This document shows, piece by piece, positions 1,871-12,768 of a DNA stretch of 25,830 nt. Under the pieces are notes generated by a model. That model worked only from the letters and a program-made list of their open reading frames with translations, was not told the DNA's origin and made no database searches. Origin of the DNA: a virus. How positions within the stretch are numbered: the first letter of the stretch is position 1; each line of letters opens with the position of its first letter. The stretch spans positions 1 through 25,830 of IMG/VR virus record IMGVR_UViG_3300017605_000304. One strand, given 5' to 3'. Made by a program: the position numbers and the translations under genes.

Positions 1871-1890
1871 TTTTGTCTCCAATGTCCGAT

Positions 1891-1952
1891 TTAGGTGGGT
1901 CACAGCACTGTTGATCTTGCAGGGAAGATCAACAGCACTGAAATACACCTAA
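1891..1952. repeat. Nested intergenic palindrome, copy A1
   Basis: The outer arms are TTAGGTG (1891-1897) and CACCTAA (1946-1952). The inner arms are CTGTTGATCTT (1908-1918) and AAGATCAACAG (1925-1935), exact complements. The element fills the gap between the gene start at 1870 and the stop at 1949-1951, which lies inside the right outer arm. This copy's inner arms carry the GTTGATCTTG-family motif. Confidence 0.75.
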
Positions 1953-2143
1953 TTTGCGTAACTAGGCCATTCTGAGATGGTATCTTCGATAGATGGCGAA
2001 TCGTACGTTAAGTAGTCTTCGTCTGGATCGTACTCATTGTCCGATTCATCCTCTTCGTCGTAATCGTCTTCTTCGTCGTAATCGTTCTGAATGGTGTATC
2101 TGTCCTCATATTCCATTTCGAGAGATTCATCCGGTTCGTACAT
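1949..2143 (-). CDS. Very acidic small protein with YDEED repeats
   Basis: 64 residues from the ATG at 2143-2141, with GGAAGGAA about five bases upstream. The centre is a tandem acidic repeat (two copies of YDEED followed by more Asp/Glu). More than a third of residues are Asp or Glu. Such a protein could mimic DNA charge, as phage DNA-mimic inhibitors do, but no family signature supports that and the repeat may partly follow from the 9-bp nucleotide period seen here. It lies between palindromes A1 and A2. Confidence 0.6.
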   Translation of the reverse strand: MYEPDESLEMEYEDRYTIQNDYDEEDDYDEEDESDNEYDPDEDYLTYDSPSIEDTISEWPSYAN

Positions 2144-2163
2144 TTTATTCCTTCCGATGTGGA

Positions 2164-2242
2164 TTAGGTGGACATGGAGGGAATCAGTACTGATTGTATG
2201 TCTTTGTATGTGTACGTACTGATTCCAACCAAATGCACCTAA
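2164..2242. repeat. Nested intergenic palindrome, copy A2
   Basis: The outer arms are TTAGGTG (2164-2170) and CACCTAA (2236-2242). The inner arms are GGAATCAGTAC (2180-2190) and GTACTGATTCC (2216-2226), exact 11-bp complements with a 25-base loop, longer than in the other copies. The right outer arm overlaps the stop codon of the next gene upstream. Confidence 0.75.
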
Positions 2243-2421
2243 ATGTCTAGTCTTTGGAGCGTTTCGTAGGAAACAACCATTTCTAGCTGGTTTGGCTTGT
2301 ATGTCTCGATTTTGCCAGATGGCCACAAAATGACCACATTGCCAGCATCTGTCACTCTTAGTACCTTTCCGACTGGTTGTGCCAATGGCACTATTTGTAC
2401 CAAATCGTTAGGTTTAATCAT
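2239..2421 (-). CDS. Small protein with possible SH3/KOW-like barrel
   Basis: 60 residues from the ATG at 2421-2419, with AGAAGGG eight bases upstream. The pattern V-x-I-V-P with GKVLRV, a turn DAG, VVILW and a second turn PSG suggests a small five-strand beta barrel of SH3 or KOW type over residues 6-50. That reading is by pattern only. Such folds often bind nucleic acid or partner proteins. It is flanked by palindromes A2 and A3 and has the same gene-palindrome-gene spacing as its neighbours. Confidence 0.6.
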   Translation of the reverse strand: MIKPNDLVQIVPLAQPVGKVLRVTDAGNVVILWPSGKIETYKPNQLEMVVSYETLQRLDI

Positions 2422-2434
2422 GATGTGTACCCTT

Positions 2435-2492
2435 CTAGGTAGACATGGCTCAGAATCGGATTGTATGTCCGATTCTGACCAAATCTGTCTAG
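2435..2492. repeat. Nested intergenic palindrome, copy A3
   Basis: The outer part is divergent: CTAGGTAGACA (2435-2445) faces TGTCTAG (2486-2492). The inner arms CAGAATCGGA (2451-2460) and TCCGATTCTG (2468-2477) are exact 10-bp complements with a 7-base loop. The outer sequence changed on both sides (AGACA/TGTCT), so pairing was kept while sequence moved. Confidence 0.7.
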
Positions 2493-2494
2493 AA

Positions 2495-2674
2495 CTATCG
2501 GATACGTTCCATTACTTCCCATTGATGGTCAAATACACCGATTAGCGTCAATGTGAGCGATGTGTCTGGGTTTGCTGTGATTCGACTCAATCGCCACTTT
2601 GTGTCACTGTTGTCACGTAATGCGATGTATTCACCATTTGAGAAGTAAACACCGTTTGCAGTAGGAATGTTCAC
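2495..2674 (-). CDS. Hypothetical protein, 59 aa, coupled start
   Basis: I place the start at the GTG at 2674-2672. It follows GAAGGGGACAGA, matching the array's usual leader, and it overlaps the TGA of the upstream gene in a GTGA arrangement, so translation is likely coupled. The longer open frame up to 2773 would need a TTG without a ribosome site. The product is beta-rich (NGVYFSNGEYIALRD, then WRLSRI and TLTLIGVFDHQWEVM), perhaps a small barrel. No family recognised. Confidence 0.55.
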   Translation of the reverse strand: MNIPTANGVYFSNGEYIALRDNSDTKWRLSRITANPDTSLTLTLIGVFDHQWEVMERIR

Positions 2675-2835
2675 TCTGTCCCCTTCAGTACCGTTTGTCC
2701 GATTTTTGCCCCGTTGATCATGTGGGCCAAGATCAATTGCTTCAAGATCAGCGAATGCGCCTGATTTGCGCAATTGTTGAGGAATGCGTTATGCTTCCTG
2801 ATTTGACCAACTGTGAGGCTAATTCGGTGCTTCAT
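2671..2835 (-). CDS. Hypothetical basic/helical protein, 54 aa
   Basis: From the ATG at 2835-2833 the frame reads MKHRISLTVGQIRKHNAFL and ends at the TGA at 2673-2671, inside the next gene's GTG. An AAAGGAG lies about 10 bases before the start. It is predicted to be mostly helical and basic. Three GATC-family motifs (2713-2749) lie inside it and shape part of its sequence (LKQLILAH region). It sits upstream of the coupled gene at 2495-2674 and fills what would otherwise be a gap. Function unknown. Confidence 0.5.
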   Translation of the reverse strand: MKHRISLTVGQIRKHNAFLNNCANQAHSLILKQLILAHMINGAKIGQTVLKGTE

Positions 2836-2850
2836 GGTATTTTGCTCCTT

Positions 2851-2906
2851 TTAGGTGGACATGGGACATTTGGGTTGGTTATCCCAAATGTCCGAAATTC
2901 ACCTAA
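2851..2906. repeat. Nested intergenic palindrome, copy A4
   Basis: The outer arms are TTAGGTG (2851-2857) and CACCTAA (2900-2906). The inner arms GGACATTTGGG (2864-2874) and CCCAAATGTCC (2883-2893) are exact 11-bp complements with an 8-base loop. On the minus strand the element runs from the stop codon of the lipoprotein gene to the AAAGGAG of the next. Confidence 0.75.
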
Positions 2907-3070
2907 TCGCCCTTGTTTGTGGTCCATTCGACTGCTTTTCCATCGACATATACCACATTACACGGAGATGATGGGGTATTTCCCAAACATGTAATATTTG
3001 CTGTTTCGTCCGTTTTGCATCCTGATGTCAAGATTAGGATGATTACCGCAACAAATGTCCATTTACGCAT
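2903..3070 (-). CDS. Small lipoprotein
   Basis: 55 residues from the ATG at 3070-3068, with GGGAG five bases upstream. A short charged N-terminus (MRKW) is followed by a hydrophobic stretch at residues 5-14 and the lipobox LTSGC, with Cys18 as the expected lipidated residue after signal peptidase II cleavage. The mature part has two more cysteines (Cys28, Cys37) that could form a disulfide outside the membrane. Small phage lipoproteins often act at the cell surface, for example in superinfection exclusion; that role here is inference from localisation only. Confidence 0.65.
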   Translation of the reverse strand: MRKWTFVAVIILILTSGCKTDETANITCLGNTPSSPCNVVYVDGKAVEWTTNKGD

Positions 3071-3081
3071 GTATGCTCCCT

Positions 3082-3138
3082 TTAGGTGGACATTCGGCAA
3101 ATCAGCGTTTATGTCTGATTTGCCTAGGTATTCACCTA
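3082..3138. repeat. Nested intergenic palindrome, copy A5
   Basis: TTAGGTG (3082-3088) faces CACCTA (3133-3138). The inner arms GGCAAATCAG (3096-3105) and CTGATTTGCC (3115-3124) are exact complements with a 9-base loop. It fills the gap between the lipoprotein gene and the gene at 3136-3327. Confidence 0.72.
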
Positions 3139-3327
3139 CTTTCGCATGATTAGTGTGTTATCAAAGGTTTCAACCGAATTGCTCGTTATGTGCTCAATGA
3201 TGATTTTGTCATTGAAAATGAGTAATCTGACGGTTAGGCCGTTATCGGTTATAACGTGTATCATGCCCGATTCGTGATTGTAAATCACCATTGCACCGTC
3301 TTGACTCATTATTTGGAATTTGTCCAT
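3136..3327 (-). CDS. Hypothetical beta-rich protein, 63 aa
   Basis: Starts at the ATG at 3327-3325, with AAAGGAG about five bases upstream. Alternating hydrophobic residues (MVIYNHESGMIHVI, TVRLLIFNDKIIIEHI) suggest a compact beta sheet of four or five strands. No cysteines, no signal peptide, no known motif. It is flanked by palindromes A5 and A6. Confidence 0.6.
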   Translation of the reverse strand: MDKFQIMSQDGAMVIYNHESGMIHVITDNGLTVRLLIFNDKIIIEHITSNSVETFDNTLIMRK

Positions 3328-3338
3328 GTTACTCCTTT

Positions 3339-3395
3339 TTAGGTGGACATGAATGGTATGGGATGTTTAGTCCCATACCAAACAAAAACACCTAA
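3339..3395. repeat. Nested intergenic palindrome, copy A6
   Basis: The outer arms are TTAGGTG (3339-3345) and CACCTAA (3389-3395). The inner arms TGGTATGGGA (3354-3363) and TCCCATACCA (3371-3380) are exact complements with a 7-base loop. The stop codon of the DUF2637-like gene directly abuts the right outer arm. Confidence 0.75.
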
Positions 3396-3983
3396 TTAGG
3401 CTTCTACGGCACTAAAGGTAGGAATTGTGGCGATGGCCGGCTTTGGTGTAACTGCCGGCTTTTTCGGAGTTGCCGTCTTTACCGGAGTTGCTGCCTTTGT
3501 CGCTGTTGTCCGTTTTGCAGGCGTTTTTGCGGGAACGGGTACTGTTGTGGCTTTCGCCACGCTAGGTACCTTTTCTACCACTTTTTGCGTTGTGTCCTTC
3601 ATAGCCAAAATGAGCATTCCGACTATAGATGGGAAGTCTACCACAAATGGGTAAGGTTTGGCGATATACCACGGTTGTCCGTTTCGCAACGCTTGCTCAT
3701 AAATGTGGTATCCGCTCATCCCAAAAGCGATAATTGCTACCAATCCGAGCCCAATCCACACGAATACTTTAGAAAGCCACCTTTTGAGCGGAAGGTAGCT
3801 AATCGTGTGAATGGTCCCAAAAAGGACAATTACCGGAAAGACTGCATAAGCAACAGGTTCCGCGCTAAGCGCCGTAGAACGGACATTAGAGAAAATCGAC
3901 ATAACTAGGGTAAGTCCGACAAGTACCGATCCCCAGAATCGTCCCTTTTGATACCGTGTACGCGGAATGCGCAGAAGATCCAT
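3396..3983 (-). CDS. DUF2637/SpdB-like membrane protein with basic tail
   Basis: 195 residues from the ATG at 3983-3981. Four hydrophobic segments lie at about 17-33, 43-63, 72-94 and 112-128. The third and fourth, joined by GYHIYEQALRNGQPW and followed by PFVVDFPSIVGMLI, match the DUF2637 pattern (helix, short amphipathic link, P-x-x-V-D, helix), a family found in actinobacterial plasmid spread (SpdB) and phage proteins. Residues 136-185 are a low-complexity Ala/Lys/Pro/Thr tail resembling histone H1, probably cytoplasmic and able to bind nucleic acid. It is the largest gene of the leftward array. Family assignment is by motif memory, with no search done. Confidence 0.65.
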   Translation of the reverse strand: MDLLRIPRTRYQKGRFWGSVLVGLTLVMSIFSNVRSTALSAEPVAYAVFPVIVLFGTIHTISYLPLKRWLSKVFVWIGLGLVAIIAFGMSGYHIYEQALRNGQPWYIAKPYPFVVDFPSIVGMLILAMKDTTQKVVEKVPSVAKATTVPVPAKTPAKRTTATKAATPVKTATPKKPAVTPKPAIATIPTFSAVEA

Positions 3984-3993
3984 TTTAGGCCCC

Positions 3994-4056
3994 TTTCAGG
4001 TAGGGAAAGCACAGAACGGTATAGTTAGTACCGTTCTGCACTTTTTCTACCTGAAA
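3994..4056. repeat. Nested intergenic palindrome, copy A7
   Basis: The outer arms TTTCAGGTAG (3994-4003) and CTACCTGAAA (4047-4056) are exact 10-bp complements, although their sequence differs from the usual TTAGGTG/CACCTAA. The inner arms CAGAACGGTA (4012-4021) and TACCGTTCTG (4029-4038) are also exact. This copy lies in the leader of the DUF2637-like gene. Confidence 0.78.
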
Positions 4057-4196
4057 GTGCAGTAAAGTCACTGTTTAGATCTCAATGTCCGATTTCAGGG
4101 TGATTTTCCGGATTCCTCCGTCAGCGTCCCCTCGGCCGCTACCATTCTATTGTAACACACTCAAATCGGGCAATTGTTAGAATATTCGCAATTCCC
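4057..4196 (-). promoter_or_regulatory. Leader and likely promoter of the leftward block 1
   Basis: No gene here. On the minus strand an extended -10, TGTTACAAT, occurs at 4157-4149, preceded by GATTTGAGTG, which resembles the context of the -10 at 6361-6369. The CRP-like site at 4200-4215 lies about 50-60 bp upstream of that -10, a usual activating distance. No clear -35 is seen, which fits an activator-dependent promoter. Transcription would enter palindrome A7 and then the DUF2637-like gene. Confidence 0.45.
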
Positions 4197-4301
4197 CTAT
4201 GTGATCTGTGTCACACCCGATACGCTAGCTAAGAGTAGTAAGAGTAGAATGCAATAGATTAAGCAGTTCCATGCTATTGCATCCCCTTCGCGTTGGTTCA
4301 T
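4197..4301 (-). CDS. 34-residue single-span membrane peptide
   Basis: From the ATG at 4301-4299 the frame reads MNQREGDAIAWNC and then a hydrophobic helix (LIYCILLLLLLAS, residues 14-26), ending at the TAG at 4199-4197. A perfect AAGGAG lies eight bases upstream. Short charged N-terminus, one membrane helix and a small C-terminal tail are typical of phage toxin-like, holin-accessory or membrane-modulating peptides, but no family can be named. Its last codons overlap the CRP-like site at 4200-4215. It sits between the second and first repeat styles of the array. Confidence 0.6.
   Translation of the reverse strand: MNQREGDAIAWNCLIYCILLLLLLASVSGVTQIT
4200..4215. promoter_or_regulatory. CRP/GlxR-type palindrome 1
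   Basis: TGTGATCTGTGTCACA fits TGTGA-N6-TCACA exactly. This is the consensus bound by CRP-family regulators, including actinobacterial Crp, GlxR and Cmr. It overlaps the end of the 34-residue gene and lies upstream of a leftward extended -10 at 4149-4157. Confidence 0.65.
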
Positions 4302-4316
4302 GCTGTTTTCTCCTTA

Positions 4317-4696
4317 ATGTACGGATATAAACTGTCTGCCCAAGTTTGTCCGTTTTAGAGATGATGAATCGTGCTATGTGCGCTGATTTCGTACAATAGC
4401 TCTTTAGTCGCCTGAACCGACGCATATGCATCCGGATAGGTGAATTTCAGGCTACACCACACATACAGTGCAGATCCATCTAAAGCCGACATTTGGTACG
4501 GAAGTGATGGATCGTACTTTTCCATCGGATTGTTGACGATGTGCCACAATATCGTGACATGTCCGCTTTGTCCGATAAAGAAGTCATTTGACTGATTCGT
4601 ACTACTTCCATCCCAATTGTCCCCGTATCCTACGGGAAGAGATGAATTGTCCATTTTGCCCCTCACTGTCTGGGCAGACAGCATATAACCGTACAT
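4317..4696. repeat. Gene-enclosing inverted repeat, cassette B1
   Basis: The arms at 4317-4341 and 4672-4696 are inverted copies, 22 of 25 matching, and enclose the gene at 4355-4654. The right arm overlaps the left arm of the next cassette by three bases. A tight hairpin CTGTCTG-GG-CAGACAG also overlaps the right arm. Confidence 0.72.
4355..4654 (-). CDS. Hypothetical protein, 99 aa
   Basis: I start at the ATG at 4654-4652 because GAGGGG lies four bases upstream in the array's usual leader form; an upstream extension to 4723 would run through the inverted-repeat arm. The N-terminus is Gly/Ser/Asn-rich (PVGYGDNWDGSSTNQSND) and the rest is mixed, with aromatic clusters (YVWCSLKFTYPDAY). It could be a small globular alpha/beta protein. 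No family recognised. Enclosed by cassette repeat B1. Confidence 0.6.
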   Translation of the reverse strand: MDNSSLPVGYGDNWDGSSTNQSNDFFIGQSGHVTILWHIVNNPMEKYDPSLPYQMSALDGSALYVWCSLKFTYPDAYASVQATKELLYEISAHSTIHHL

Positions 4697-5102
4697 GTGC
4701 GGATATAAGAGGATATGACCCAAGATGTCCGATTAGTACTAAACTTCCTGAATGAAGAATTCGGTATCGTATGAGTCGTTAAAGGTGGTATCTTCCCATT
4801 GGTCCGGATCGTTCATAATACCCGGATCATCATGAATGTCGCGAATGTCCGCTTCTAGTGCGGACCAATTATCCATTTCGTACTCTTCCGCTTCATTCAT
4901 CTCATTCTGGACCCATTTGAGCAAATTGGTAATAGCTTGCGCAAACGTCCTTTCTTCGCCCAAAATGACCTCAATGGGAGACATGCATGGATCTGCGGAC
5001 GTATCCATCTTATCCGTCAAATCCCACTCAGTATAACCGTAAGTCCACATTTTCTACTCCATTTTGGTGAACTCAGGTCATATCCTCATAAATCCGTACA
5101 TG
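4694..5102. repeat. Gene-enclosing inverted repeat, cassette B2
   Basis: The arms at 4694-4720 and 5076-5102 match at 24 of 27 positions in inverted orientation. They enclose the gene at 4739-5050. Neighbouring arms of B1 and B3 overlap its ends by three and five bases. Confidence 0.75.
4739..5050 (-). CDS. Acidic hypothetical protein, 103 aa
   Basis: Starts at the ATG at 5050-5048, with GGAG seven bases upstream. Strongly acidic, with a helix-forming centre (AQAITNLLKWVQNEMNEAEE) followed by Asp-rich segments (DIRDIHDDPG, DPDQWEDTTFND). No cysteines essential for a motif and no membrane segment. Function unknown; an acidic protein-interaction role is possible. Enclosed by cassette repeat B2. 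Confidence 0.62.
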   Translation of the reverse strand: MWTYGYTEWDLTDKMDTSADPCMSPIEVILGEERTFAQAITNLLKWVQNEMNEAEEYEMDNWSALEADIRDIHDDPGIMNDPDQWEDTTFNDSYDTEFFIQEV

Positions 5103-5461
5103 TAACGTTAGACTGGCATGTCTCATATGACTGGAATTATCCGATATGCCCGATTTGTCCAACTTCCCACAGGTATGCGAACTCTACCTGCTCTTGTGCG
5201 GGAATGTTATTCTTTCTGGCATATGGACACTGTTGCAACCAATTGACCGTTACCTTGTTTTCGCCCGATATTCTCTCAATGACCACTCCGAGACAAATGT
5301 CGGTAAAGATAGGGTTGTCCGATTCGGCATCCCATGCGTGGATAACGCATGGATTGTGTATTCCGTCCGGTTCTAGCTTGGTTACGAGTGTTCCGTCCAT
5401 GATTGGCATAGTTTCTCCCTATTGTCCGTTTTGAGAGACATGCCAGTTTAGCGCTACATGT
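5098..5461. repeat. Gene-enclosing inverted repeat, cassette B3
   Basis: The arms at 5098-5124 and 5435-5461 match at 24 of 27 positions in inverted orientation and enclose the gene at 5137-5409. Both arms carry the short TTAGAC/TTTAGC-like core seen in several cassettes. Confidence 0.75.
5137..5409 (-). CDS. Hypothetical protein, 90 aa
   Basis: Starts at the ATG at 5409-5407 with AGGGAG about five bases upstream. An internal ATG three codons in is possible. The sequence is mixed alpha/beta: GTLVTKLEPDG, then CVIHAWDAESDNPIF, and LGVVIERISGENKVTVNWL, which looks like two antiparallel strands with a turn. It holds three cysteines without a C-x2-C pattern. No family recognised. Enclosed by cassette repeat B3. 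Confidence 0.6.
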   Translation of the reverse strand: MPIMDGTLVTKLEPDGIHNPCVIHAWDAESDNPIFTDICLGVVIERISGENKVTVNWLQQCPYARKNNIPAQEQVEFAYLWEVGQIGHIG

Positions 5462-5614
5462 ACCCCTAAATCCCTCCCCCTCCCACTATGTTCCACCTGT
5501 GGTGGGTTTGTCTAGAGGCTGCCGACTTTTTGTGAAATGTCCAATTCTTTAGGACGTTATACGCCCTTCCCTAAGGAATCGGACAAGTCGGATTTGTGCT
5601 ACTTGTCCGTCTTG
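5462..5614. other. Palindrome-dense gap between cassettes
   Basis: No gene. It holds CCACCTGTGGTGG (5493-5505, self-complementary ends), the second copy of the 36-bp repeat, an inverted repeat 5539-5553/5570-5584 (13 of 15), and GGACAAGT/ACTTGTCC at about 5581-5608. It breaks the otherwise back-to-back cassette series between B3 and B4 and may be a control or former cassette site. Confidence 0.5.
5520..5555. repeat. 36-bp direct repeat, copy 2
   Basis: Matches 871-906 at about 32 of 36 positions in the same orientation. The GACTTTT stem of copy 1 is only partly kept here (GACTTTT/AAATGTC). It lies in the gene-free gap between cassettes B3 and B4. Confidence 0.65.
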
Positions 5615-5943
5615 CTAGGAAATGTACTCTTTGTCAGGCATGTCCGTTTTGCACTATTTAGGAGTTATATACCCTATTGGCCCATTCGACCTGATTTTCG
5701 CCGAAACGCTCGATTTGTACCTTAAGTGCGATTAGCACCTCTTGTTCCAAATCGGTGGGAATGCCCGCATTGACCAGAGCCTTCCGAAATGCCTGATATG
5801 GGTAGTCTAGGTCGATCTGAGCCATTTCGCCCAGTCCTTCCCGAATGTCCATTTCGAGGCTTTCGTCTGCAAAGCCCATTACGTCCATTTTGTCTCCTTT
5901 GTCCGATACGTCGGACATGCCTGATAAGGAGCACATTTCCTAG
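5615..5943. repeat. Gene-enclosing inverted repeat, cassette B4
   Basis: The arms at 5615-5646 and 5912-5943 match at 29 of 32 positions in inverted orientation, the longest pair. They enclose the gene at 5658-5888. The right arm ends on the first base of the next cassette's left arm. Confidence 0.78.
5658..5888 (-). CDS. Acidic hypothetical protein, 76 aa
   Basis: Starts at the ATG at 5888-5886, directly after the standard leader AAAGGAGACAAA. Acidic N-terminal half (MDVMGFADESLEMDIREG) and a helical C-terminal half (QAFRKALVNAGIPTDLEQEV, IALKVQIERFGENQ). In the N-terminal half Asp or Gly falls on nearly every third codon, following the 9-bp nucleotide period. Function unknown. Enclosed by cassette repeat B4. 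Confidence 0.62.
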   Translation of the reverse strand: MDVMGFADESLEMDIREGLGEMAQIDLDYPYQAFRKALVNAGIPTDLEQEVLIALKVQIERFGENQVEWANRVYNS

Positions 5944-6270
5944 ATGTCGGGATTCAACCCCATATGTCCGGATTGTCCGATTTGTCCTAGTTGGCTAGGA
6001 TTCGGGGGATTCTACCCATATAGTCGGCAAAGCCACCAAATGTCATGACAACAGAGGGATCGTCCGCAATGTCTAGCATGTCCTGTGTTTCCTCATTTGG
6101 GAAGAATGCCTGATCTGCCTCATTCTTCTCATTTGTCACGAAATGTCCGATTTGCGGTAGTCCGCACACATTGTCGTAGTAAAGCACCTGATGTACGGAA
6201 TATCGTGCTTTGGCCATTTTGTCCTCCTATGTCCGTTTTATCCAGACATATGAGGATGATTCCCGACATC
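5943..6270. repeat. Gene-enclosing inverted repeat, cassette B5
   Basis: The arms at 5943-5971 and 6242-6270 match at 25 of 29 positions in inverted orientation and enclose the gene at 5987-6217. This is the most divergent pair. Confidence 0.7.
5987..6217 (-). CDS. Hypothetical protein, 76 aa
   Basis: Starts at the ATG at 6217-6215 with AGGAGG seven bases upstream. Basic and aromatic N-terminus (MAKARYSVHQVLYYDN) and an acidic middle (NEKNEADQAFFPNEETQDML). No motif recognised. It is the first gene downstream of the leftward promoter region at 6275-6440 and is enclosed by cassette repeat B5. Confidence 0.62.
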   Translation of the reverse strand: MAKARYSVHQVLYYDNVCGLPQIGHFVTNEKNEADQAFFPNEETQDMLDIADDPSVVMTFGGFADYMGRIPRILAN

Positions 6271-6459
6271 TCCACTATTGAGTTGATAAGAGACGATTTG
6301 AGGGGGTTTCGCCCGATTGCCCGGTTCCTCCTCGTTTGTCCGTTCTGCCCTACTACCTCCAGTATACCACACCCTATATCCGAAATGTCCGAATTATCAT
6401 CATATTTCAGGGAGAAGTTGATCTGTGATCTTCGTCACACCGAAATATCCGTCATTTCC
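6271..6459 (-). promoter_or_regulatory. Leftward promoter region 2 with conserved leader
   Basis: On the minus strand an extended -10, TGGTATACT, lies at 6369-6361, preceded by GATATAGGGTG. The CRP-like site is 6424-6439. Downstream of the -10, positions 6275-6321 form a leader block nearly repeated at 8548-8594 (about 40 of 47 bases). No gene is visible. This should drive the leftward genes starting with 5987-6217. Confidence 0.5.
6424..6439. promoter_or_regulatory. CRP/GlxR-type palindrome 2
   Basis: TGTGATCTTCGTCACA fits TGTGA-N6-TCACA exactly. It is preceded by GTTGATC, as is site 3 at 8785. It lies about 60-65 bp upstream of the leftward -10 at 6361-6369. Confidence 0.65.
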
Positions 6460-6499
6460 GATATAGTAGCTTTAGACCGTCATGTCCGTTTTGGTATGG

Positions 6500-6652
6500 T
6501 TAGTCCGTATTGCAGAAAAAGCCCGGAACGCCCGAAATTTCGTATCCGCACCCAAAGAGAACAATGCCCTTGTTTGTCCCGTTATAGACTCTTATGTTCC
6601 ACAACGTGACAAATGTCAGGATTAGGACGATTGTCCAAATTGCCCTCTTCAT
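6500..6652 (-). CDS. Small secreted or membrane-anchored protein, 50 aa
   Basis: From the ATG at 6652-6650, overlapping the upstream TGA as ATGA, so coupled to the gene at 6649-6849. It reads MKRAIWTIVLILTFVTLW, a charged start plus a hydrophobic helix (residues 5-18), then a short polar part with two cysteines (Cys35, Cys47) that could be disulfide-bonded outside the cell. It ends at the TAA at 6502-6500. No lipobox. Signal anchor or signal peptide are both possible. Function unknown. Confidence 0.6.
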   Translation of the reverse strand: MKRAIWTIVLILTFVTLWNIRVYNGTNKGIVLFGCGYEISGVPGFFCNTD

Positions 6653-6849
6653 GCCGATACGTACCTTGGATAGGCATTTCGGTGCATAAGGTACGATTTC
6701 TCCGCTAAGCGAAGTTCGTCCTCTATGACCTCAATGTCCGGTTCGTCCAGAATGTCCAAAATGCCAAAAACGTCGAATTTGTCTAACATGTCCATTTTGT
6801 TACGAAATTCCCTTTCGTCCAAAATGTCCTGATAGTTCATTCTAGGCAT
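6649..6849 (-). CDS. Acidic hypothetical protein, 66 aa
   Basis: I start at the ATG at 6849-6847, preceded by AAAGGAG with seven bases spacing; an upstream frame extension runs into the repeat arm. The centre is rich in repeated Asp-Ile/Leu (DILDE, MDMLDKF, ILDILDEPDIEV), which follows from the GTCC/GGAC-type 9-bp period and may still form an acidic helix. The C-terminus is basic and aromatic (SYLMHRNAYPRY). Function unknown. Coupled to the membrane peptide downstream. Confidence 0.6.
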   Translation of the reverse strand: MPRMNYQDILDEREFRNKMDMLDKFDVFGILDILDEPDIEVIEDELRLAEKSYLMHRNAYPRYVSA

Positions 6850-6905
6850 GTTTGTACTCCTTTGTCCGTTTTGTACGGACATGACGGTTTAGAGCTACTA
6901 TATCC

Positions 6906-7269
6906 GATATACCCGTTTTAGACTGGCATGTCCGTTTTGCATTACTTTACAGTGATTTTACCGTTTTGGAGCTTTTCGACCGTCGCGTACCATTTGCGGT
7001 TGTTGTACGGGTTTGGACCGGTAACGGAGTATTTGACCCCAATGACCAAATTGTCCGCACTGCCCGTAAAGGGCGTATGGTCCGAAGTGCCGTATACGAC
7101 CACATCATCCGGATTTGCCTCAATTGCCCGCTTTAGGGCAGCTTTGGTAGGAATGTCCTTTCCGTCCGATCTGTTCTGTACGCCCACATTTACGTAGCTT
7201 GCCACGTTTTGCTCCTTATGTCCGATTTGTGTTTTAATGTCGGACATGCCAGTTTAGAACGGGTATATC
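6906..7269. repeat. Gene-enclosing inverted repeat, cassette B7
   Basis: The arms at 6906-6934 and 7241-7269 match at 27 of 29 positions in inverted orientation and enclose the gene at 6942-7205. Both arms hold TTTAGA in the plus orientation, which accounts for both mismatches. Confidence 0.78.
6942..7205 (-). CDS. Hypothetical beta-rich protein, 87 aa
   Basis: I start at the GTG at 7205-7203 because AAGGAGCAAAAC lies directly before it, whereas the ATG at 7247 lies inside the inverted-repeat arm. The product begins MASYVNVGVQNRSDG. It has a helix (TKAALKRAIEANPDD) followed by VVVYGTSDHTPF and LVIGVKYSVTGPNPYN, then KWYATVEKLQNGKITV, a possible alpha-plus-beta fold. The helix-turn-strand pattern could bind DNA or protein, but no family is recognised. 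Enclosed by cassette repeat B7. Confidence 0.65.
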   Translation of the reverse strand: MASYVNVGVQNRSDGKDIPTKAALKRAIEANPDDVVVYGTSDHTPFTGSADNLVIGVKYSVTGPNPYNNRKWYATVEKLQNGKITVK

Positions 7270-7271
7270 AT

Positions 7272-7601
7272 GAATCATCCGGTTATAAATGGGTATGTCT
7301 CGTTCTGTCCGATTTTAGGCGGTTTGTGACCTTTCGAGTACCATGCGACGATGATCCCGAATTGTCTGTAATGCCCTACTTGTGGCAAGTTGGTCGTCTT
7401 CGTCCTCTATGCCCGATTCGACCACTTTGTCCCATATCATTTGGAATGTCCAAGTTACCAGCATTTCTGCCTTTATGGCCGCAAAGACCGCTTTGTGCAC
7501 CTTTGGGCTTCTTGTCCATAGATATGGCATTTGCACCGTTTTGGCCATTTCGTCTCCTATGTCCGTTTTGGGAGACATACCCATATATGACCGGATGATT
7601 C
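7272..7601. repeat. Gene-enclosing inverted repeat, cassette B8
   Basis: The arms at 7272-7301 and 7572-7601 match at 28 of 30 positions in inverted orientation and enclose the gene at 7315-7548. Two bases separate it from B7 and three from B9. Confidence 0.8.
7315..7548 (-). CDS. Hypothetical helical protein, 77 aa
   Basis: Starts at the ATG at 7548-7546, after the standard leader GGACATAGGAGACGAA. Predicted mostly helical: SPKVHKAVFAAIKAEMLVTW, FQMIWDKVVESGIEDEDD and TSRALQTIRDHRRMVLERS. The basic C-terminal helix could contact nucleic acid, but no helix-turn-helix is clear. Function unknown. Enclosed by cassette repeat B8. Confidence 0.65.
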   Translation of the reverse strand: MAKTVQMPYLWTRSPKVHKAVFAAIKAEMLVTWTFQMIWDKVVESGIEDEDDQLATSRALQTIRDHRRMVLERSQTA

Positions 7602-7604
7602 TAA

Positions 7605-7889
7605 ACAATCCAGGTTTAGACGCATATGTCCGATTTGGTTACTTTTAGGCGTCTTCGACCAGTTTGATCACAATGTCCGAATCGTGCATATAGTCCTCTA
7701 TGAGAAAACTGCGATCATTGCGAAGAATGTCCTCAATCTCCTCTTTGAGTACTATGTCCACATTGTCGAATCTGTCCGCTTCTGTCTCGATTAGTACCCA
7801 AATGTGAACTTTGCCGTTTTCGTCCACATATTCCATTTTTGTCTCCTATGTCCGTTTTGGCCGGACATATGCGTTTAGACCTGGATTGT
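7605..7889. repeat. Gene-enclosing inverted repeat, cassette B9
   Basis: The arms at 7605-7632 and 7862-7889 match at 26 of 28 positions in inverted orientation and enclose the gene at 7645-7836. Between the ribosome site and the right arm a second ATGTCCG faces the arm's CGGACAT, giving a local hairpin next to the ribosome site. Confidence 0.8.
7645..7836 (-). CDS. Acidic hypothetical protein, 63 aa
   Basis: Starts at the ATG at 7836-7834 after GGACATAGGAGACAAAA. Begins MEYVDENGKVHIWVLIETEA, which looks like a beta hairpin, then acidic helices (IVLKEEIEDILRNDRSFLIED). The product is strongly acidic. No family recognised. Enclosed by cassette repeat B9. Confidence 0.62.
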   Translation of the reverse strand: MEYVDENGKVHIWVLIETEADRFDNVDIVLKEEIEDILRNDRSFLIEDYMHDSDIVIKLVEDA

Positions 7890-7892
7890 CTG

Positions 7893-8229
7893 GATAATCC
7901 GGTTATGGGGTGTATGTCCGATTTGCACTATCTGTCTAAATTGCGCCGATTTTCCACGGTTCGACCTCTATGAGCGTTTCGCCCACAATGCCCACTACGT
8001 TCCAATCGTCGTCTATGACACATTCGCGCATAATGACCGTATTGCCCAGATTGGGTAGTTCGACCACTATGTACAGTTTGTCCTCATTGTCCGGAGTGAG
8101 CATAAACTCCTCATATCCGACGATTGTCCCAAATTCGACCCGAAAGTCGTCTTTGTCCAAATAGTACGTAGTTTCCATTTTGTCTCCTATGTCCGATTCG
8201 GCGGACATACACCCTATGACCGGATTATC
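7893..8229. repeat. Gene-enclosing inverted repeat, cassette B10
   Basis: The arms at 7893-7920 and 8202-8229 match at 26 of 28 positions in inverted orientation and enclose the gene at 7936-8178. Confidence 0.8.
7936..8178 (-). CDS. Hypothetical beta-rich acidic protein, 80 aa
   Basis: Starts at the ATG at 8178-8176, after GGACATAGGAGACAAA; a longer frame to 8262 would cross the repeat arm. The strands VEFGTIVGYEE, KLYIVVELPN, TVIMRECVIDDDWNVVGIVG and TLIEVEPW suggest a small barrel. It lies in the clearest 9-bp-periodic stretch: sixteen successive 9-mers in one phase from 7963 all begin with G on the plus strand. Function unknown. Enclosed by cassette repeat B10. Confidence 0.65.
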   Translation of the reverse strand: METTYYLDKDDFRVEFGTIVGYEEFMLTPDNEDKLYIVVELPNLGNTVIMRECVIDDDWNVVGIVGETLIEVEPWKIGAI

Positions 8230-8237
8230 CGATCTGT

Positions 8238-8530
8238 CTCTCAAGTCCCCTATGTCCGGCATGTCCGCTTTTGCTTAGATCTGACCGGTTAGGAAGGCTT
8301 TCTCCAGTTTCACCAAGTTTGTCTTGGTTTCGACTAGCTTGTCCAGTTTCGCCGTGATTTGTCGTACTGCGTCCTGGAATGTCGTGATATCATCCCGAAT
8401 GTCCAGGTTTAGCACGTCTTGGGAGATTTCGTCTAGATCTGCGTTGAAATGTCCCGCAATGGCGTCTTTGTCCATCTTTGTCTCCTTATGTCCGTTTTGT
8501 CGGACATGCCGGATATGGGAGACTTGAGAG
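8238..8530. repeat. Gene-enclosing inverted repeat, cassette B11
   Basis: The arms at 8238-8267 and 8501-8530 match at 27 of 30 positions in inverted orientation and enclose the gene at 8275-8475. It is the last gene-bearing cassette, next to the control region. Confidence 0.78.
8275..8475 (-). CDS. Coiled-coil-like hypothetical protein, 66 aa
   Basis: Starts at the ATG at 8475-8473, after GGACATAAGGAGACAAAG. Almost wholly helical with heptad-like hydrophobics (VLNLDIRDDITTFQDAVRQI, AKLDKLVETKTNLVKLEKAF), so a short coiled coil or oligomeric helix bundle is likely. It is the first gene of the leftward array downstream of promoter region 3 and so is probably the most strongly expressed. Function unknown. 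Enclosed by cassette repeat B11. Confidence 0.65.
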   Translation of the reverse strand: MDKDAIAGHFNADLDEISQDVLNLDIRDDITTFQDAVRQITAKLDKLVETKTNLVKLEKAFLTGQI

Positions 8531-8784
8531 CTTTGCCCTGTCTGTCGCTATTGAGTTGAAAAGTGACGATTTGGGTTGGTTTCACCGGTTTGCCGGAAGT
8601 GTCCGGTATTTCCGTTCCGCCCCCTTGGTGCACCTTCAGTCTAGCATAGCCCGGTCTGTGCTACTATGTCGTATATGTCCGTTTTATGGTCATATAGCAG
8701 GGCAAGTTTTGACCCACTATATTAGTACAAATCCGGACATATACGATATATACGGGCAGAACGGGGCAAATGGGGATGTTGATC

Positions 8785-8800
8785 TGTGACGTACGTCACA
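8785..8800. promoter_or_regulatory. CRP/GlxR-type palindrome 3
   Basis: TGTGACGTACGTCACA is a perfect 16-bp palindrome and fits TGTGA-N6-TCACA. As at site 2 it is preceded by GTTGATC. It lies upstream of the leftward array. Confidence 0.68.
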
Positions 8801-8881
8801 CTGACCCACTATATGGTGATATGTCCCATATGCCCGTTTCAATATGCCCCTTATATGGGCATATATCCGGACATACCGGAC

Positions 8882-8897
8882 TGTGATGTACGTCACA
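8882..8897. promoter_or_regulatory. CRP/GlxR-type palindrome 4
   Basis: TGTGATGTACGTCACA fits TGTGA-N6-TCACA exactly, 97 bp from site 3 centre to centre (about nine helical turns), so the two could be bound on one face of the DNA. Confidence 0.66.
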
Positions 8898-9203
8898 CTG
8901 TGAGGTATATGATGATATGCCCCTTATATGTGGATATAGGGTAATATGTCCGTTTTGCGATGATTGTGCGTGTCCGGATTATGAGTAAATAAGATGATAT
9001 ATTAACTATATTATGAAATAAGATGATAAATTGGACATTTTGGCAGGTTCCACGTAGATCTAAGATGAAAAGAAGTGTTAGTGAATTGACATAGTAATAA
9101 ATCGATTATTCTTAGATTCAACGAGGATTGGCTGTAAAAAGAAGTGTTAACAAATTGACAGTATTATAAGCATATAATTGAAAATAATGTGATTTAGTGA
9201 AAT

Positions 9204-9288: not shown

Positions 9289-9624
9289 ATGGGTAACTCA
9301 GCCGACAGACCGCAGTCCGATCCTTCCTGGGATCCGATCCGCGCATTGGAGAACCTTAAGTTAGAACGCGCATTAGACAGCACGGATACTCCTGATCTCG
9401 TTGCTAGACGATTATTCAAAGAGAATCTTCCTGTTGCTGTGATGGCCATTTGTCATCTTGCTACATACTCAGATACTGAAGTAATAAGATTCAACGCGGC
9501 TAAGTTCATTGTTGAACGGACAATGGGTCCAGCCGAGCGTGTTGTTTCTGAAACTGGTAAGCATGCATGGGATGACATTTACGATAACGTTGTCACCGAA
9601 GCGGAAGGCTATCTTAGCCGATAA
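9289..9624 (+). CDS. Putative terminase small subunit
   Basis: 111 residues, with AGGAGG seven bases before the ATG. All-helical composition; the segment TEVIRFNAAKFIVERTMGPA resembles the conserved helical region of small terminases in actinobacterial phages (residues repeated as R-x-x-A-A-x-x-x-x-x-R-x-x-G-P-A). Small terminases recognise the packaging site and hand DNA to the large subunit. The first position of the late operon supports this. Between it and the large subunit lie six small genes, which is more than usual. Its first residues are polar and probably disordered. Confidence 0.55.
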   Translation: MGNSADRPQSDPSWDPIRALENLKLERALDSTDTPDLVARRLFKENLPVAVMAICHLATYSDTEVIRFNAAKFIVERTMGPAERVVSETGKHAWDDIYDNVVTEAEGYLSR

Positions 9625-9645
9625 TATCAGCGAGGGTAGCCTTCC
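9603..9645. repeat. Hairpin across the small terminase stop codon
   Basis: GGAAGGCTA (9603-9611) and TAGCCTTCC (9637-9645) are exact complements with a 25-base loop that holds the stop codon. It is followed by CCTGTGGTGTTTT and the next ribosome site. It may attenuate or process the late mRNA. Confidence 0.5.
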
Positions 9646-9672
9646 TCCTGTGGTGTTTTAAAGGAGGGGATT

Positions 9673-10173
9673 GTGCCGGCAAGACGTGGACTTCGCGGAG
9701 ATAATGTTATCTACCGCAGTGCATCTGGTGACACCATGGCAGTTGTACTAAGTGGAGGACAAGGAGATGCACCTGCTGCTCCGGTTGCTGTTGGTAGTGG
9801 TACAGGTGGAACTCTAGCTGCCGCATCTTACACTTACAAAAATACTTACGTCAAAGATGGCGTTGAAAGTGCTCTAAGTGCTGCAAGCAATACATATGCA
9901 TCATCTGGATCAACTTCTTCAGTCGCATTAACAGTTGCGACAGTAGCCGGTGCGACTTCATACAAGATTTATGGTCGTACTGGTGGATCGTTCTTGCTTA
10001 TGAACACTATTACTGCCCCAACAGTACTATACACAGATACCGGCGCAGATACTCCATCCGGAGCTGCACCAGCAACTAACTTCAATGCAAGTTTCAGATC
10101 TCCATATACTGGACATACAGCTGTCACTGGTGTACTTCCTGGTGAGACTGCTGGCACCTACCAGAATATATAG
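9673..10173 (+). CDS. Ig/FN3-like virion protein
   Basis: 166 residues from a GTG preceded by AAGGAGGGG. After a short N-terminus (DNVIYRSASGDTMAV) residues 30-140 form an Ig- or fibronectin-III-like domain: GTLAAASYTYKNTYV, SSVALTVATVAGATSYKIYG, and an end Y-T-D-T-G-x-x-T-P-S-G-A. The same pattern occurs in the tail tube protein at 19420-20694. Such domains decorate phage heads and tails and bind weakly to surface sugars. The gene may encode a head fibre or decoration protein; the position before the large terminase is unusual for either. Confidence 0.6.
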   Translation: MPARRGLRGDNVIYRSASGDTMAVVLSGGQGDAPAAPVAVGSGTGGTLAAASYTYKNTYVKDGVESALSAASNTYASSGSTSSVALTVATVAGATSYKIYGRTGGSFLLMNTITAPTVLYTDTGADTPSGAAPATNFNASFRSPYTGHTAVTGVLPGETAGTYQNI

Positions 10174-10180
10174 GTGAAAA

Positions 10181-10501
10181 ATGCCTGGATATGCAGTAAT
10201 TAATACCAGACCCAGAGTATTATTCTCGGATAACTCCAATGTTGCTGTTGGTACTCCGGTTGTAAGTAGCTACACAAAATTGAATAAAACGTCTTTCATT
10301 CTGACAAAAACTAATGGTGGCGGAACTTACGGTATGACATTAGATTGGTCTATGGATGGAAGTACTGGAGTATTCCAGACTACTTCTGCACCAGCCAATA
10401 ATACGCCAACAACAATTAGTGCATTATGTCCGTACGTACGTTTCACTATTAGTGCAACGGGCAGCAATCTATCATCGCACCAAACCACTCTTATGATATG
10501 A
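10181..10501 (+). CDS. Hypothetical beta-rich virion-type protein
   Basis: 106 residues with AGGTG a few bases before the ATG. The sequence is Ser/Thr/Asn-rich with alternating strands (TSFILTKTNGGGTYGMTLDW, STGVFQTTSAP, YVRFTISATGSNLSS), typical of a jelly-roll or tail/fibre beta domain. It follows the Ig-like protein directly and may pair with it in the virion. It ends TGA overlapping the next ATG. No family recognised with certainty. Confidence 0.5.
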   Translation: MPGYAVINTRPRVLFSDNSNVAVGTPVVSSYTKLNKTSFILTKTNGGGTYGMTLDWSMDGSTGVFQTTSAPANNTPTTISALCPYVRFTISATGSNLSSHQTTLMI

Positions 10502-10704
10502 GCAATAGAGGTGTAGATTGTCTTGGTGCTACCATCGATAGTGATGGTACACCGAATTTTGCTTTCATATGTGATTGTGGTGTTACAACAGTAATAAAAT
10601 TAGTAGATTTAGGCGATAATCCATTGGAATTCGCTTACACATGTCAGTGTGAAGAAGTTCATTGGATCACAATTCAACGTGGGATAGAAAATGAAATTCA
10701 GTGA
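10498..10704 (+). CDS. Cys-rich, possible zinc-ribbon protein
   Basis: 68 residues; the start overlaps the upstream stop (ATGA), so it is probably coupled. CDCG (about residues 25-28) and CQCE (about 49-52) form two Cys-x-Cys knuckles spaced like a zinc ribbon, with beta strands between. Two further cysteines or histidines complete possible ligands. Such small ribbons bind nucleic acid or stabilise adaptors. Function not established. Confidence 0.5.
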   Translation: MSNRGVDCLGATIDSDGTPNFAFICDCGVTTVIKLVDLGDNPLEFAYTCQCEEVHWITIQRGIENEIQ

Positions 10705-10870
10705 AGCAGTCGAATTTATGTTTGCAAAAGGGAAAGCACGGCGACCGCTTTTTAGAAATAGATATGTGACTTATGATAAAGAGATAGCGCTTTTTGTGGA
10801 TGACGAAAATAGAACCTGGGTTCCACGGCCGGAAGATGCAGTCGCGGAAGATTGGGAGTTTATTCAGTAA
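10691..10870 (+). CDS. Short DUF2829/Tad2-like protein
   Basis: 59 residues from the ATG at 10691 to the TAA at 10868-10870, overlapping the previous gene by 14 bases. It starts MKFSEAVEFMFAKGKARRP and ends PEDAVAEDWEFIQ, the two hallmark segments of DUF2829: M-K-F-x-E-A with a following G-x-x-x-R-R, and a C-terminal A-E-D-W-E. Characterised members (Tad2) sequester the cyclic-ADP-ribose-type signal of the Thoeris anti-phage system. This copy is shorter than the usual 80-100 residues, so ligand binding cannot be assumed. There is no good Shine-Dalgarno; translation is probably coupled. Confidence 0.5.
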   Translation: MKFSEAVEFMFAKGKARRPLFRNRYVTYDKEIALFVDDENRTWVPRPEDAVAEDWEFIQ

Positions 10871-10899
10871 TTCCACCTGTGGTGTTTTGGGAAGGAAAT

Positions 10900-11040
10900 G
10901 TGGTATCGATGAGTGCCGATGTAATTTTGTTTATATGTGCGCTTATTTGTATGCTGATTTCCGCTGCTGGGTTTAAGACCGGTCGTATTAGTATGTTTCA
11001 TTTGAGTCTTGCATTCTTGATAGCGACATTTTTGGTTTAA
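10900..11040 (+). CDS. Two-helix small membrane protein
   Basis: The start is either the GTG at 10900 (GGGAAGG just upstream) or the ATG at 10909; I take the first for its ribosome site. The product (46 or 43 residues) has helices around VILFICALICMLISAAG and SMFHLSLAFLIATFLV with a short basic loop (KTGR) between. Similar short membrane proteins are common beside terminase genes in actinophages, with no known role; a holin-like role is possible but the gene is far from any lysin seen here. Its stop lies one base before the terminase ATG. Confidence 0.5.
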   Translation: MVSMSADVILFICALICMLISAAGFKTGRISMFHLSLAFLIATFLV

Positions 11041-11041
11041 T

Positions 11042-12457
11042 ATGACAACACAACAGGTGCGGGCGGTATCTAAGGAGAAGTATTTCGAACTCATTGGATA
11101 TAAACCACACGAAAAGCAGCGTTTATTCCATGATTCCAAGGCTCGGTTTAAGATTCCCGTATGTGGTAGACGGTTCGGAAAAACATATATGGGTGCTCGT
11201 GAGGCCGAACCTATTCTCATGATACCAGACAAACGAATTTGGATTTGTGGTCCTACTTATGACCTGGGTGAGAAAGAATTCCGGGTCATTTGGCAGGATA
11301 TGATTGTAAAACTAGGACTTGGTAAAGAAAAATCTGTAAAACGCTCATTTAACAAACGTTCTGGCGATATGTACATAGAATTTCCGTGGAATACAAGACT
11401 TGAGGTTCGCAGTGCTGATAGACCTGAAACTTTGGTTGGTGACGCGCTTGATTACGTCATTATGGCCGAAGCTGCGAAGCACAACAAAGAAACCTGGGAC
11501 CGATATATTAGACCAGCCCTGGCAGACCGGCGCGGTAGTGCCACATTCAGTACCACGCCCGAGGGGCAAAACTGGATTCACGACCTATGGCAGTTAGGCA
11601 GAAACCCACTTTTTGAAGAATACGAATCATGGAGATTTCCTTCGTGGGAAAATACTCATATTTACCCTGATGGTCGTACTGATAAAGAAATTCTGTTACT
11701 CGAACGTACTATGCCGTTCGAGTGGTTCCAACAGGAAATTGCGGCTGACTTTACCTCGTTCATGGGGAAGATTTACAGTGAATGGGATGAAGTTACGCAC
11801 GTAAAGCCACATGTTTACAACCCAATGTGGAAAAACTACATAGCATTCGACTGGGGTTTCGTAAACCCGATGGCCGCAGTTGAATTCCAAGTAGATCCGA
11901 TGGATAGAATACATGTTTGGCGACTACATTATAAAGTACACACCAGACTTGAAACATTTCTCGACCAAATGCGGACAAGAGAACAGCCAAAAGGTTACAA
12001 AATTGATTTATGTTTTGGCGATGCGGCAGATCCTGAAGCGAATGCCACTGTTTGTGCTAAGTTTGCACCATGCATTTCCAAGCCAGAATCTAAGACCAAC
12101 TGGCGAGAAGGCATAGATTTAGTCAAACAATTTTTATCAACCAGGACCGTGGGGCACGCAGACGAATTCGGCACGCCCATAGATGAGCCCTGGCTGTTTG
12201 TAGACCCGTCCTGTGGTGACCTAATCAGAGAATTCAACAATTATCGTGCGGCTGCACCATCTACTGGTAAAAACAACAGAAACCCAAGAGAAGATGCACA
12301 AAAATATGATGATCATGCTCTAGATGCACTACGTTATGGATTGATGCATATTTTCAAGCTTGGTTGCACTATGAGCTTAACTGATATTTATGGAAATGTC
12401 GAAATGAAAGACATTCCAGATACTGGTTATTTCACGCAGAATATGGAATTCGCATGA
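11042..12457 (+). CDS. terL: Terminase large subunit
   Basis: 471 residues, the ATP-driven DNA packaging motor and headful or end-cutting nuclease. The ATPase half shows Walker A GRRFGKT (residues 42-48), a hydrophobic Walker B ending in E143 (YVIMAEA), and a coupling motif STTPEG (170-175). The nuclease half has the RNase-H-like acid set D270 (IAFDWGF), D327 (CFGDAAD) and D423/D424/D428 (YDDHALDAL). Length is normal. No Shine-Dalgarno is visible; TAATATG links it to the membrane gene, so reinitiation is likely. Its TGA overlaps the next start. Confidence 0.93.
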   Translation: MTTQQVRAVSKEKYFELIGYKPHEKQRLFHDSKARFKIPVCGRRFGKTYMGAREAEPILMIPDKRIWICGPTYDLGEKEFRVIWQDMIVKLGLGKEKSVKRSFNKRSGDMYIEFPWNTRLEVRSADRPETLVGDALDYVIMAEAAKHNKETWDRYIRPALADRRGSATFSTTPEGQNWIHDLWQLGRNPLFEEYESWRFPSWENTHIYPDGRTDKEILLLERTMPFEWFQQEIAADFTSFMGKIYSEWDEVTHVKPHVYNPMWKNYIAFDWGFVNPMAAVEFQVDPMDRIHVWRLHYKVHTRLETFLDQMRTREQPKGYKIDLCFGDAADPEANATVCAKFAPCISKPESKTNWREGIDLVKQFLSTRTVGHADEFGTPIDEPWLFVDPSCGDLIREFNNYRAAAPSTGKNNRNPREDAQKYDDHALDALRYGLMHIFKLGCTMSLTDIYGNVEMKDIPDTGYFTQNMEFA

Positions 12458-12753
12458 GTGATTTAGCTGAATTAGTACCTGGAGAGTCTTATGATCTTGG
12501 AAACGGCGTAAGATATTCAAAGTGCTTAGATAAAGATGGAAATTGGTTTGCTATTGATGAGTGGCACCTAACTCCTGATGGTAAATTATGTGGTGGTTGG
12601 GTACCATTTGATGTTCAAAGTAAATACGTGACGAAGGCATCTGCCAAGTGGACTGTAAACAGTTACGATCCGCTTGATTTATCGCCTTCGCTTCTTTGTA
12701 CTCGCTGTAATCATCATGGATTTATTAGGCAAGGCCAATGGATACCAGCCTAA
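12454..12753 (+). CDS. Hypothetical protein with C-terminal Cys-x2-Cys
   Basis: 99 residues; the start overlaps the terminase stop (ATGA). Begins SDLAELVPGESYDLGNGVRY; the middle has EWHLTPDGKLCGGWVPFD and the end is SPSLLCTRCNHHGFIRQGQW. C-x2-C followed by His-His suggests half of a metal site. Position after the large terminase and length are conserved in my recollection of actinophage genomes, where it is left without function. It might be an adaptor or capsid-associated protein. Confidence 0.6.
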   Translation: MSDLAELVPGESYDLGNGVRYSKCLDKDGNWFAIDEWHLTPDGKLCGGWVPFDVQSKYVTKASAKWTVNSYDPLDLSPSLLCTRCNHHGFIRQGQWIPA

Positions 12754-12768
12754 GGGAGGTGACAAACG

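Follow-up and report, generated by a model that had tools for sequence, protein, structure and literature searches.

A continuous lattice of 9- to 10-base repeats across the small-gene block of a phage, a candidate track for a BldC-family protein

We analysed a stretch of 25,830 nucleotides of viral DNA (IMG/VR record IMGVR_UViG_3300017605_000304, positions 1 to 25,830), here called the window. From position 1 to about 8,970 it is a block in which a directional unit of 9 or 10 bases is repeated, with peak strength at 6,440–8,696. The existence of this lattice at the DNA level is close to certain. All readings of it as a DNA-coating track for some protein, taken together, are very probable. The case that the protein is of the BldC family, and that its winged-helix filament coats and controls the early-gene block along a continuous track, appears to us evenly balanced on the sequence comparisons given below. 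A first-pass annotation had described a 9-bp quasi-period at 6727–8262; the periodicity is real there, and the whole block 1–8,970 is involved.

In sliding windows of 600 bases, the peak period was 9.2–9.9 over most of 1–8,700, and beyond 9,300 a period of 3 prevailed. Autocorrelation within 6727–8262 was +0.13, +0.13, +0.08 and +0.08 at lags of 9, 18, 27 and 36, and past 8,500 it was small or codon-like. The spectrum of GC versus AT for 6727–8262 had a peak of 45.5 at a period of 9.4, whereas none of 60 dinucleotide shuffles exceeded 10.4. The first-pass annotation had proposed comparing 1900–8500 with the sequence beyond 9300. The former had a peak of 55.2 at 9.27 (25 shuffles reached at most 8.5), whereas the control 9300–15900 gave 6.3, below its shuffle maximum of 9.2, so that no signal was seen in this structural region. 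Both the spectra and a hidden Markov model (HMM) found the lattice absent from the structural genes at 9289–25830. Chance and dinucleotide composition are excluded by the shuffled spectra. Pooled over six phages, the period was 9.46 (half height 9.21–9.71); the GC-versus-AT projection was strongest, reaching 12 times the white-noise level, with almost nothing in purine versus pyrimidine. Phase coherence decays within about 100 bp. The period-3 coding signal is weak across much of 1900–8700 compared with the structural genes, and ordinary gene finders may therefore overlook genes of this kind.

The repeat unit was derived with a cyclic HMM on the window and then refined on relatives. It reads N(T/A)(A/T)T-G-T-C-C-G on the plus strand, that is (A/T)(A/T)T-GTCC-(G/C)n, and AWWNCGGAC on the minus strand. 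Steps are of 9 bases (about 57%) or 10 bases (about 37%) and seldom longer, with a mean of 9.46–9.5; the strict period of 9 proposed by the first-pass annotation was thus too narrow. About 916 units were decoded in 1–8,700 when every base was forced into the lattice, and about 710 in 1,950–8,700. The C-G pair is the best conserved column, and its guanine is preceded on the 5' side by T in 64% and by C in 20% of the units (84% together). The optional tenth base fits best between the AT block and CGGAC, with a log likelihood of −42820.7 versus −43191.6 for a place between the C and the next A. The runs of nine-mers beginning with G that had been listed earlier were recovered at 7963–8106 (16 of 16), 6727–6843 (12 of 13), 7035–7133 (8 of 11) and, in a second phase, 8137–8262 (11 of 14). 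Two weaker runs had also been proposed. At 1990–2143 only 3 of 17 nine-mers begin with G in the proposed phase, and the lattice there is in another phase; 4700–5460 lies inside the region covered by the block model.

The lattice is a nucleotide-level pattern that is independent of the encoded proteins, as had been claimed from the first inspection. Noncoding DNA holds 460 units and the three codon phases hold 235, 109 and 112, with much the same motif in all. In gene 8275–8475 the steps are mainly of 10 bases and the lattice phase cycles through the codon, and gene 6649–6849 has 9-base steps. Codon controls were run on 18 genes with 200 resamples, either by drawing synonymous codons from the block's own usage or by shuffling codon order. 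Summed spectral power was 92.7 for the real genes, versus 40.9 ± 2.2 after synonymous resampling (maximum of 200, 47.7) and 22.5 ± 1.9 after codon-order shuffling; the signal thus exceeds the codon controls that the first-pass annotation had named as able to refute it. Lattice-model scores were +699 bits versus −219 ± 33 and −632 ± 29, respectively; this model was partly trained on the window itself, and the spectral power, which is training-free, agrees with it. None of the 200 controls matched the real value in 17 of the 18 genes, and in the other gene 2 of 200 synonymous resamples did so. The signal partly survives synonymous resampling, which shows that amino-acid choices serve the lattice too. 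Amino-acid periodicity or codon bias of small acidic proteins could have produced the lattice as a side effect, and Asp-rich three-residue patterns do occur in proteins where the lattice keeps one codon phase. However, the lattice is found in noncoding DNA and in every codon phase and is removed by synonymous resampling, which refutes this explanation and leaves it practically no probability.

A joint two-strand model found the unit reversed in three patches within genes, still periodic at 9.4–9.9 (Table 1). Residues encoded in reversed patches are more hydrophobic (Kyte–Doolittle +0.40 versus −0.38; 61 called genes in seven phages, with just four patches of at least 12 residues). The unit may be turned round where Asp codons at every third residue would be intolerable, so that the track persists. 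Orientation flips within genes point to a signal in double-stranded DNA rather than in RNA. An RNA-level signal would mean that cassette mRNA presents GGACA every 9–10 nt to an RNA-binding protein or for control of folding. The cassette genes and the lattice do stand mostly in a fixed relative orientation, and the inverted repeats that enclose cassettes could pair in RNA. Orientation nevertheless flips inside single genes and alternates in the noncoding strip 8718–9043, the AT/GC signal outweighs base identity, and no Rfam family matched, so that an RNA signal is highly improbable. The corresponding strip of L005, L007, L009 and L042, from the first cassette gene to the small terminase gene, likewise carries alternating or reversed lattice patches.

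Identity between adjacent units exceeded the expectation from composition by only 0.01–0.03 on a base of 0.37, and by about zero for 10-base neighbours. Recent tandem (satellite) expansion was rejected because neighbouring units are scarcely more alike than distant ones, and the mutational or expansion footprint offered in the first-pass annotation falls with it. The signal peaks at the terminase-side edge and fades outward, as might be expected if the block had grown by duplication of a 9–10 base unit and then decayed. Against such a degenerate tandem repeat stand the low identity of adjacent units, the consensus kept in diverged phages, and the maintenance of the lattice by both synonymous and amino-acid choices; we consider it barely credible. 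Cassettes that are homologous between phages are shuffled as modules, and the lattice persists. Curvature at the helical repeat, also suggested earlier, would need a period of 10–11 bp (about 10.5), and it was rejected because the period is 9.46 and the signal is a directional motif. A signal of the phi29 p6 type, with a 12-bp or 11-bp period and no base motif, was not found either, since the lattice has its 9.46 period and a base motif.

A head-to-tail winged-helix filament was guessed from the spacing first, and the BldC motif was compared afterwards. BldC of Streptomyces binds 9-bp direct repeats head-to-tail with the consensus AATTXXXX(C), and its crystal structure was determined on DNA with the sequence 5'-CAATTCGGACAATTCGGACA-3' (PMC5859096). 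Arg30 of BldC reads the guanine of a C-G pair together with its 5' pyrimidine (YpG) (PMC5859096). The crystal-structure site AATTCGGAC is a 9-bp direct repeat; it shares with the lattice both the key C-G pair and the pyrimidine that precedes the guanine. The score of this site under the lattice matrix is 8.34 bits, where 9.43 is the maximum, and in the register predicted for it p is 3e-5. When any rotation or strand is allowed it is still in the top 0.1% of random 9-mers (p 0.00095), and the four natural smeA-sffA units give a combined p of 4e-4. Like the BldC sites, the lattice has direct repeats about 9 bp apart, an AT block with a C-G pair four bases on (AWWNCGGAC, with C most conserved), and a T or C before the contacted guanine in 84% of units. 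One suggestion of the first-pass annotation, a protein lattice with a footprint of 9 bp, thus agrees with the BldC repeat in length, motif and register.

Several observations weigh against a BldC-family binder. Known BldC sites consist of 2–4 repeats of 9. Steps of 10 bases are common in the lattice, an admixture unlike the published sites, and the distance from the AT block to the C-G pair is not fixed, the extra base falling inside the published AATTXXXX(C) repeat. Either a protomer therefore reads the C with the following AT block, or the binder differs from Streptomyces BldC. No BldC-like gene was found in the lattice phages G003, G004 and G007 of the window's clade, two of them circular and complete, or in the complete G037, so that in these phages a BldC-family binder would have to come from the host. 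G025 and G044, each of them circular, carry a BldC gene without a lattice. The lattice evidence would also fit if another phage or host protein, for example an architectural protein of HU-like, ribbon-helix-helix or other winged-helix type, coated the block and the likeness to BldC were convergent; the lattice would still be a coating track. The 9/10 spacing, the place of the extra base and the four lattice phages lacking the gene favour such a protein. On the other hand, motif, register, the base pair contacted by the arginine and the YpG step all agree with BldC, and sequence inspection revealed no alternative candidate among the small genes common to lattice phages. We regard another coating protein as possible, although unlikely.

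Relatives were gathered by TerL and then by capsid protein. With TerL identity of at least 75%, the lattice was present wherever the sequence left of the terminase genes was covered (L001, L002, L003, L005–L009, L022 and L042), and for L004 it was seen via the other end of its contig, G003. None of the first set of relatives, with TerL identity of 64% or less, had it. The capsid-protein scan added L351, L371, L378, L384 and L392, which carry the lattice at 70–72% capsid identity. In whole records the lattice is limited to a single block left of the small terminase gene, spanning 8–12 kb in this phage family. Lattice records with terminal overlaps include G004 (81 kb, 127 bases; circular and complete), G007 (76 kb, 123), G039 (92 kb, 69), G037 (110 kb, 123) and G031 (74 kb, 123), among others. 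Within the window's clade, the long genomes show the lattice strongest toward the terminase side and weakening outward. De novo training on each genome yielded the window's unit in five of six other lattice phages, with correlations to the window-clade matrix of 0.95–0.97 (G030, G032, G037 and G039) and 0.91 (G031); the correlation for G033 was 0.62. Latticeless controls trained in the same way gave a codon-like period of 9 and correlations of 0.13–0.27. L392 (G033) has steps mostly of 10 (mean 9.9–10.0) and a diverged unit, and its binder possibly has a different specificity.

Scans of viral contigs for triplets of TGTCC at 9-base spacing returned mostly chance and exact-period-9 matches and no further long lattice of period 9.5, and a DNA search of named phages found nothing. 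Stretches with an exact period of 9 (9.02 on the grid) were seen in L087, L110, L124, L142, L156, L161, L187 and L194, in L187 across almost 13 kb. These are likely to be protein or tandem repeats, distinct from the 9.46 lattice.

Phages of the wider family encode BldC homologs (G025, G026, G030, G031, G032, G039, G041, G044 and G045), which matched the BldC structures 6AMA/6AMK in phmmer at 7e-21 and 3e-6. The arginine equivalent to Arg30 is invariant in an eight-row alignment (A3), in which the Arg30 position is numbered after the BldC sequence. Lattice and homolog occur together in G030, G031, G032 and G039. Since the phage BldC genes do not track with the lattice, the common binder is probably encoded by the host. 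A self-contained phage system was dropped as a general explanation because a BldC-family gene is not present in every lattice phage. By TerL, the nearest named phages (33–35% identity) have Arthrobacter and Microbacterium as hosts; by capsid protein, phages of Pseudomonas, Arthrobacter and Roseobacter rank about equal. A TerL search of bacterial genomes gave no usable host, and the sole close match was a contig of Bacterium UASB270.

Other sites lie in or near the lattice. CRP/GlxR-type palindromes of the form TGTGAN6TCACA number 13 in 92 kb of lattice blocks versus 1 in 799 kb elsewhere in the records of lattice phages (p 2e-12). All 13 belong to the window's clade, and two of the four in the window are outside forward lattice segments. 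The sequence TTGATCTTG occurs seven times (0.39 expected), at 323, 982, 1325, 1409, 1446, 1911 and 2728, partly as inverted pairs. Its copies lie in or beside gaps of the weak lattice and are possibly sites of another regulator.

In the proposed mechanism, a small protein of the BldC family with a MerR-like winged helix-turn-helix would polymerise head-to-tail on 9-bp direct repeats. The AT-rich part of each AWWNCGGAC unit would give the wing a narrow minor groove, and the conserved arginine in the recognition helix would read the C-G pair with a pyrimidine 5' of the guanine. With hundreds of units in succession, the filament could spread over the small-gene block left of the terminase genes, across promoters and coding sequence. 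The filament might hold the early-type block silent or set the timing of its expression, with CRP-type activation acting at lattice gaps. The binder would be a BldC-family protein, usually that of the host, and the outcome silencing or timing; silencing, timing and DNA protection are all compatible with the lattice data.

That genes and gaps are covered without a break speaks for coating and against isolated operators or a decoy. As a decoy, hundreds of sites would titrate a BldC-type regulator of the host and alter host development or expression during infection. The number of sites (about 700–900 units in the window) and the known role of BldC as a developmental repressor (PMC6428758) are in keeping with this. 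But a sponge requires sites, not unbroken cover. To remain continuous, the lattice distorts the coding sequence of some 18 genes and switches strand, a price that a sponge placed in noncoding DNA would not pay; a decoy is therefore improbable. Not quite an even chance, in our judgement, attaches to the fuller picture: a multi-kilobase winged-helix filament track over some 20 genes that would act as a sequence-encoded chromatin domain, constraining synonymous codons and amino acids beside CRP-type sites and the terminase region, and silencing or timing the early block via a host developmental regulator. If true, this would be a regulatory code laid over thousands of coding bases in a bacterial virus and shaping its codons and amino acids. 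It would make it possible to test how far filaments of head-to-tail winged-helix proteins such as BldC can spread, and it would link the control of early genes in phages to a developmental regulator of bacteria. The protein sequences of open reading frames in such blocks are partly dictated by DNA-level demands, which bears on annotation and on claims of de novo genes.

The small genes of the block appear to be of early type, to judge from their size, strand and place, and a Pfam scan of those block proteins that were scanned gave no match above the cut-off. In 4317–8530, almost every cassette is flanked by its own inverted repeat of 26–62 nt (for example 6906–6934/7241–7269, 7892–7920/8202–8230 and 8238–8267/8501–8530), so that a gene's 5' leader can base-pair with its own 3' end. 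In 2164–4066 the intergenic repeats are local hairpins instead of cassette-enclosing arms. G039 and G037 have comparable arms, about 28–32 nt long, in their lattice blocks.

Table 1. Positions of the lattice, genes and other sites in the window, and of BldC homolog genes in related phages.
Feature	Position	Strand	Remarks
Main lattice	1950–8700	+	Direct repeats (A/T)(A/T)T-GTCC-(G/C)n, 9- or 10-base steps, about 710 units; from HMM segmentation, unit counts and spectra
Strongest unbroken lattice	6440–8696	+	Spans cassettes and gaps and takes in the first-pass coordinates; from HMM and sliding spectra
Weaker, broken lattice	1–1895	+	1–150, 784–959, 1092–1315, 1523–1895; from two-strand model
Reversed lattice	3717–3923	−	Within transmembrane-coding part of minus-strand gene 3396–3983 (195-aa protein)
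Reversed lattice patch	4360–4528	−	Within gene 4355–4654
Reversed lattice patch	4996–5101	−	5' end of gene 4739–5050
Noncoding block edge before small terminase gene	8718–9043	.	Orientation alternates: 8718–8780 −, 8781–8840 +, 8841–8892 −, 8893–8972 +, 8973–9043 −
About 18 small genes	1949–8475	−	Mostly 50–110 aa, crossed by the lattice in all three codon phases
Small genes (a)	8275–8475, 7936–8178, 7645–7836, 7315–7548, 6942–7205, 6649–6849	−	
Small genes (b)	6500–6652, 5987–6217, 5658–5888, 5137–5409, 4739–5050, 4355–4654	−	
Small genes (c)	3396–3983, 3136–3327, 2903–3070, 2671–2835, 2239–2421, 1949–2143	−	
Example cassette	8238–8530	.	Gene 8275–8475 within its own inverted repeat (arms 8238–8267 and 8501–8530); upstream arm carries reversed lattice units
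CRP/GlxR-type palindrome	4200–4215	.	TGTGATCTGTGTCACA; outside forward lattice segments
CRP/GlxR-type palindrome	6424–6439	.	TGTGATCTTCGTCACA; inside lattice gap 6411–6439
CRP/GlxR-type palindrome	8785–8800	.	TGTGACGTACGTCACA
CRP/GlxR-type palindrome	8882–8897	.	TGTGATGTACGTCACA
Structural genes without lattice	9289–25830	+	Small terminase-like protein, TerL 11042–12457, portal 12769–14292, protease 14593–15897, capsid 16354–17334, tape measure 21405–24050
Phage BldC homolog genes	L301:1474–1662, L399:1378–1677, L401:1456–1722, L402:1462–1725		Found in phages with and without lattice

Among known systems, the BldC sites of whiI and smeA-sffA (PMC5859096) resemble the lattice in their directional 9-bp direct repeats of variable number, with an AT block, a C-G pair four bases downstream and the YpG step. 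They differ in having 2–4 promoter repeats, whereas the phage lattice has hundreds of units in steps of 9 or 10 over 8–12 kb, coding sequence included. In the crystal, BldC assembles cooperatively as a head-to-tail filament along pseudo-continuous DNA (PMC5859096), the arrangement proposed here for the phage lattice. Lambda Xis and RdfS (PMC11963761) also form head-to-tail winged-helix oligomers along DNA with indirect readout, but at short regulatory or recombination sites without a long sequence-encoded track. The p6 protein of phi29 (PMC10899789) is a coating protein for which a phage genome encodes a periodic (bendability) signal, and it also acts in transcription control. Its signal differs in a period of 12 bp (11 in GA-1), right-handed wrapping, the lack of a base motif and recognition regions near the genome ends. 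The stoperators of mycobacteriophages (PMC9283540) are likewise many asymmetric regulator sites in one phage genome, although scattered rather than contiguous. The bacterial A-tract periodicity of 10–11 bp (PMC3431218) is similar as an AT/GC periodicity near the helical repeat in coding and noncoding DNA, whereas the lattice has a period of 9.46 and a directional motif, is confined to one block, and occurs in phages, a group in which the 10–11 bp signal is generally missing.

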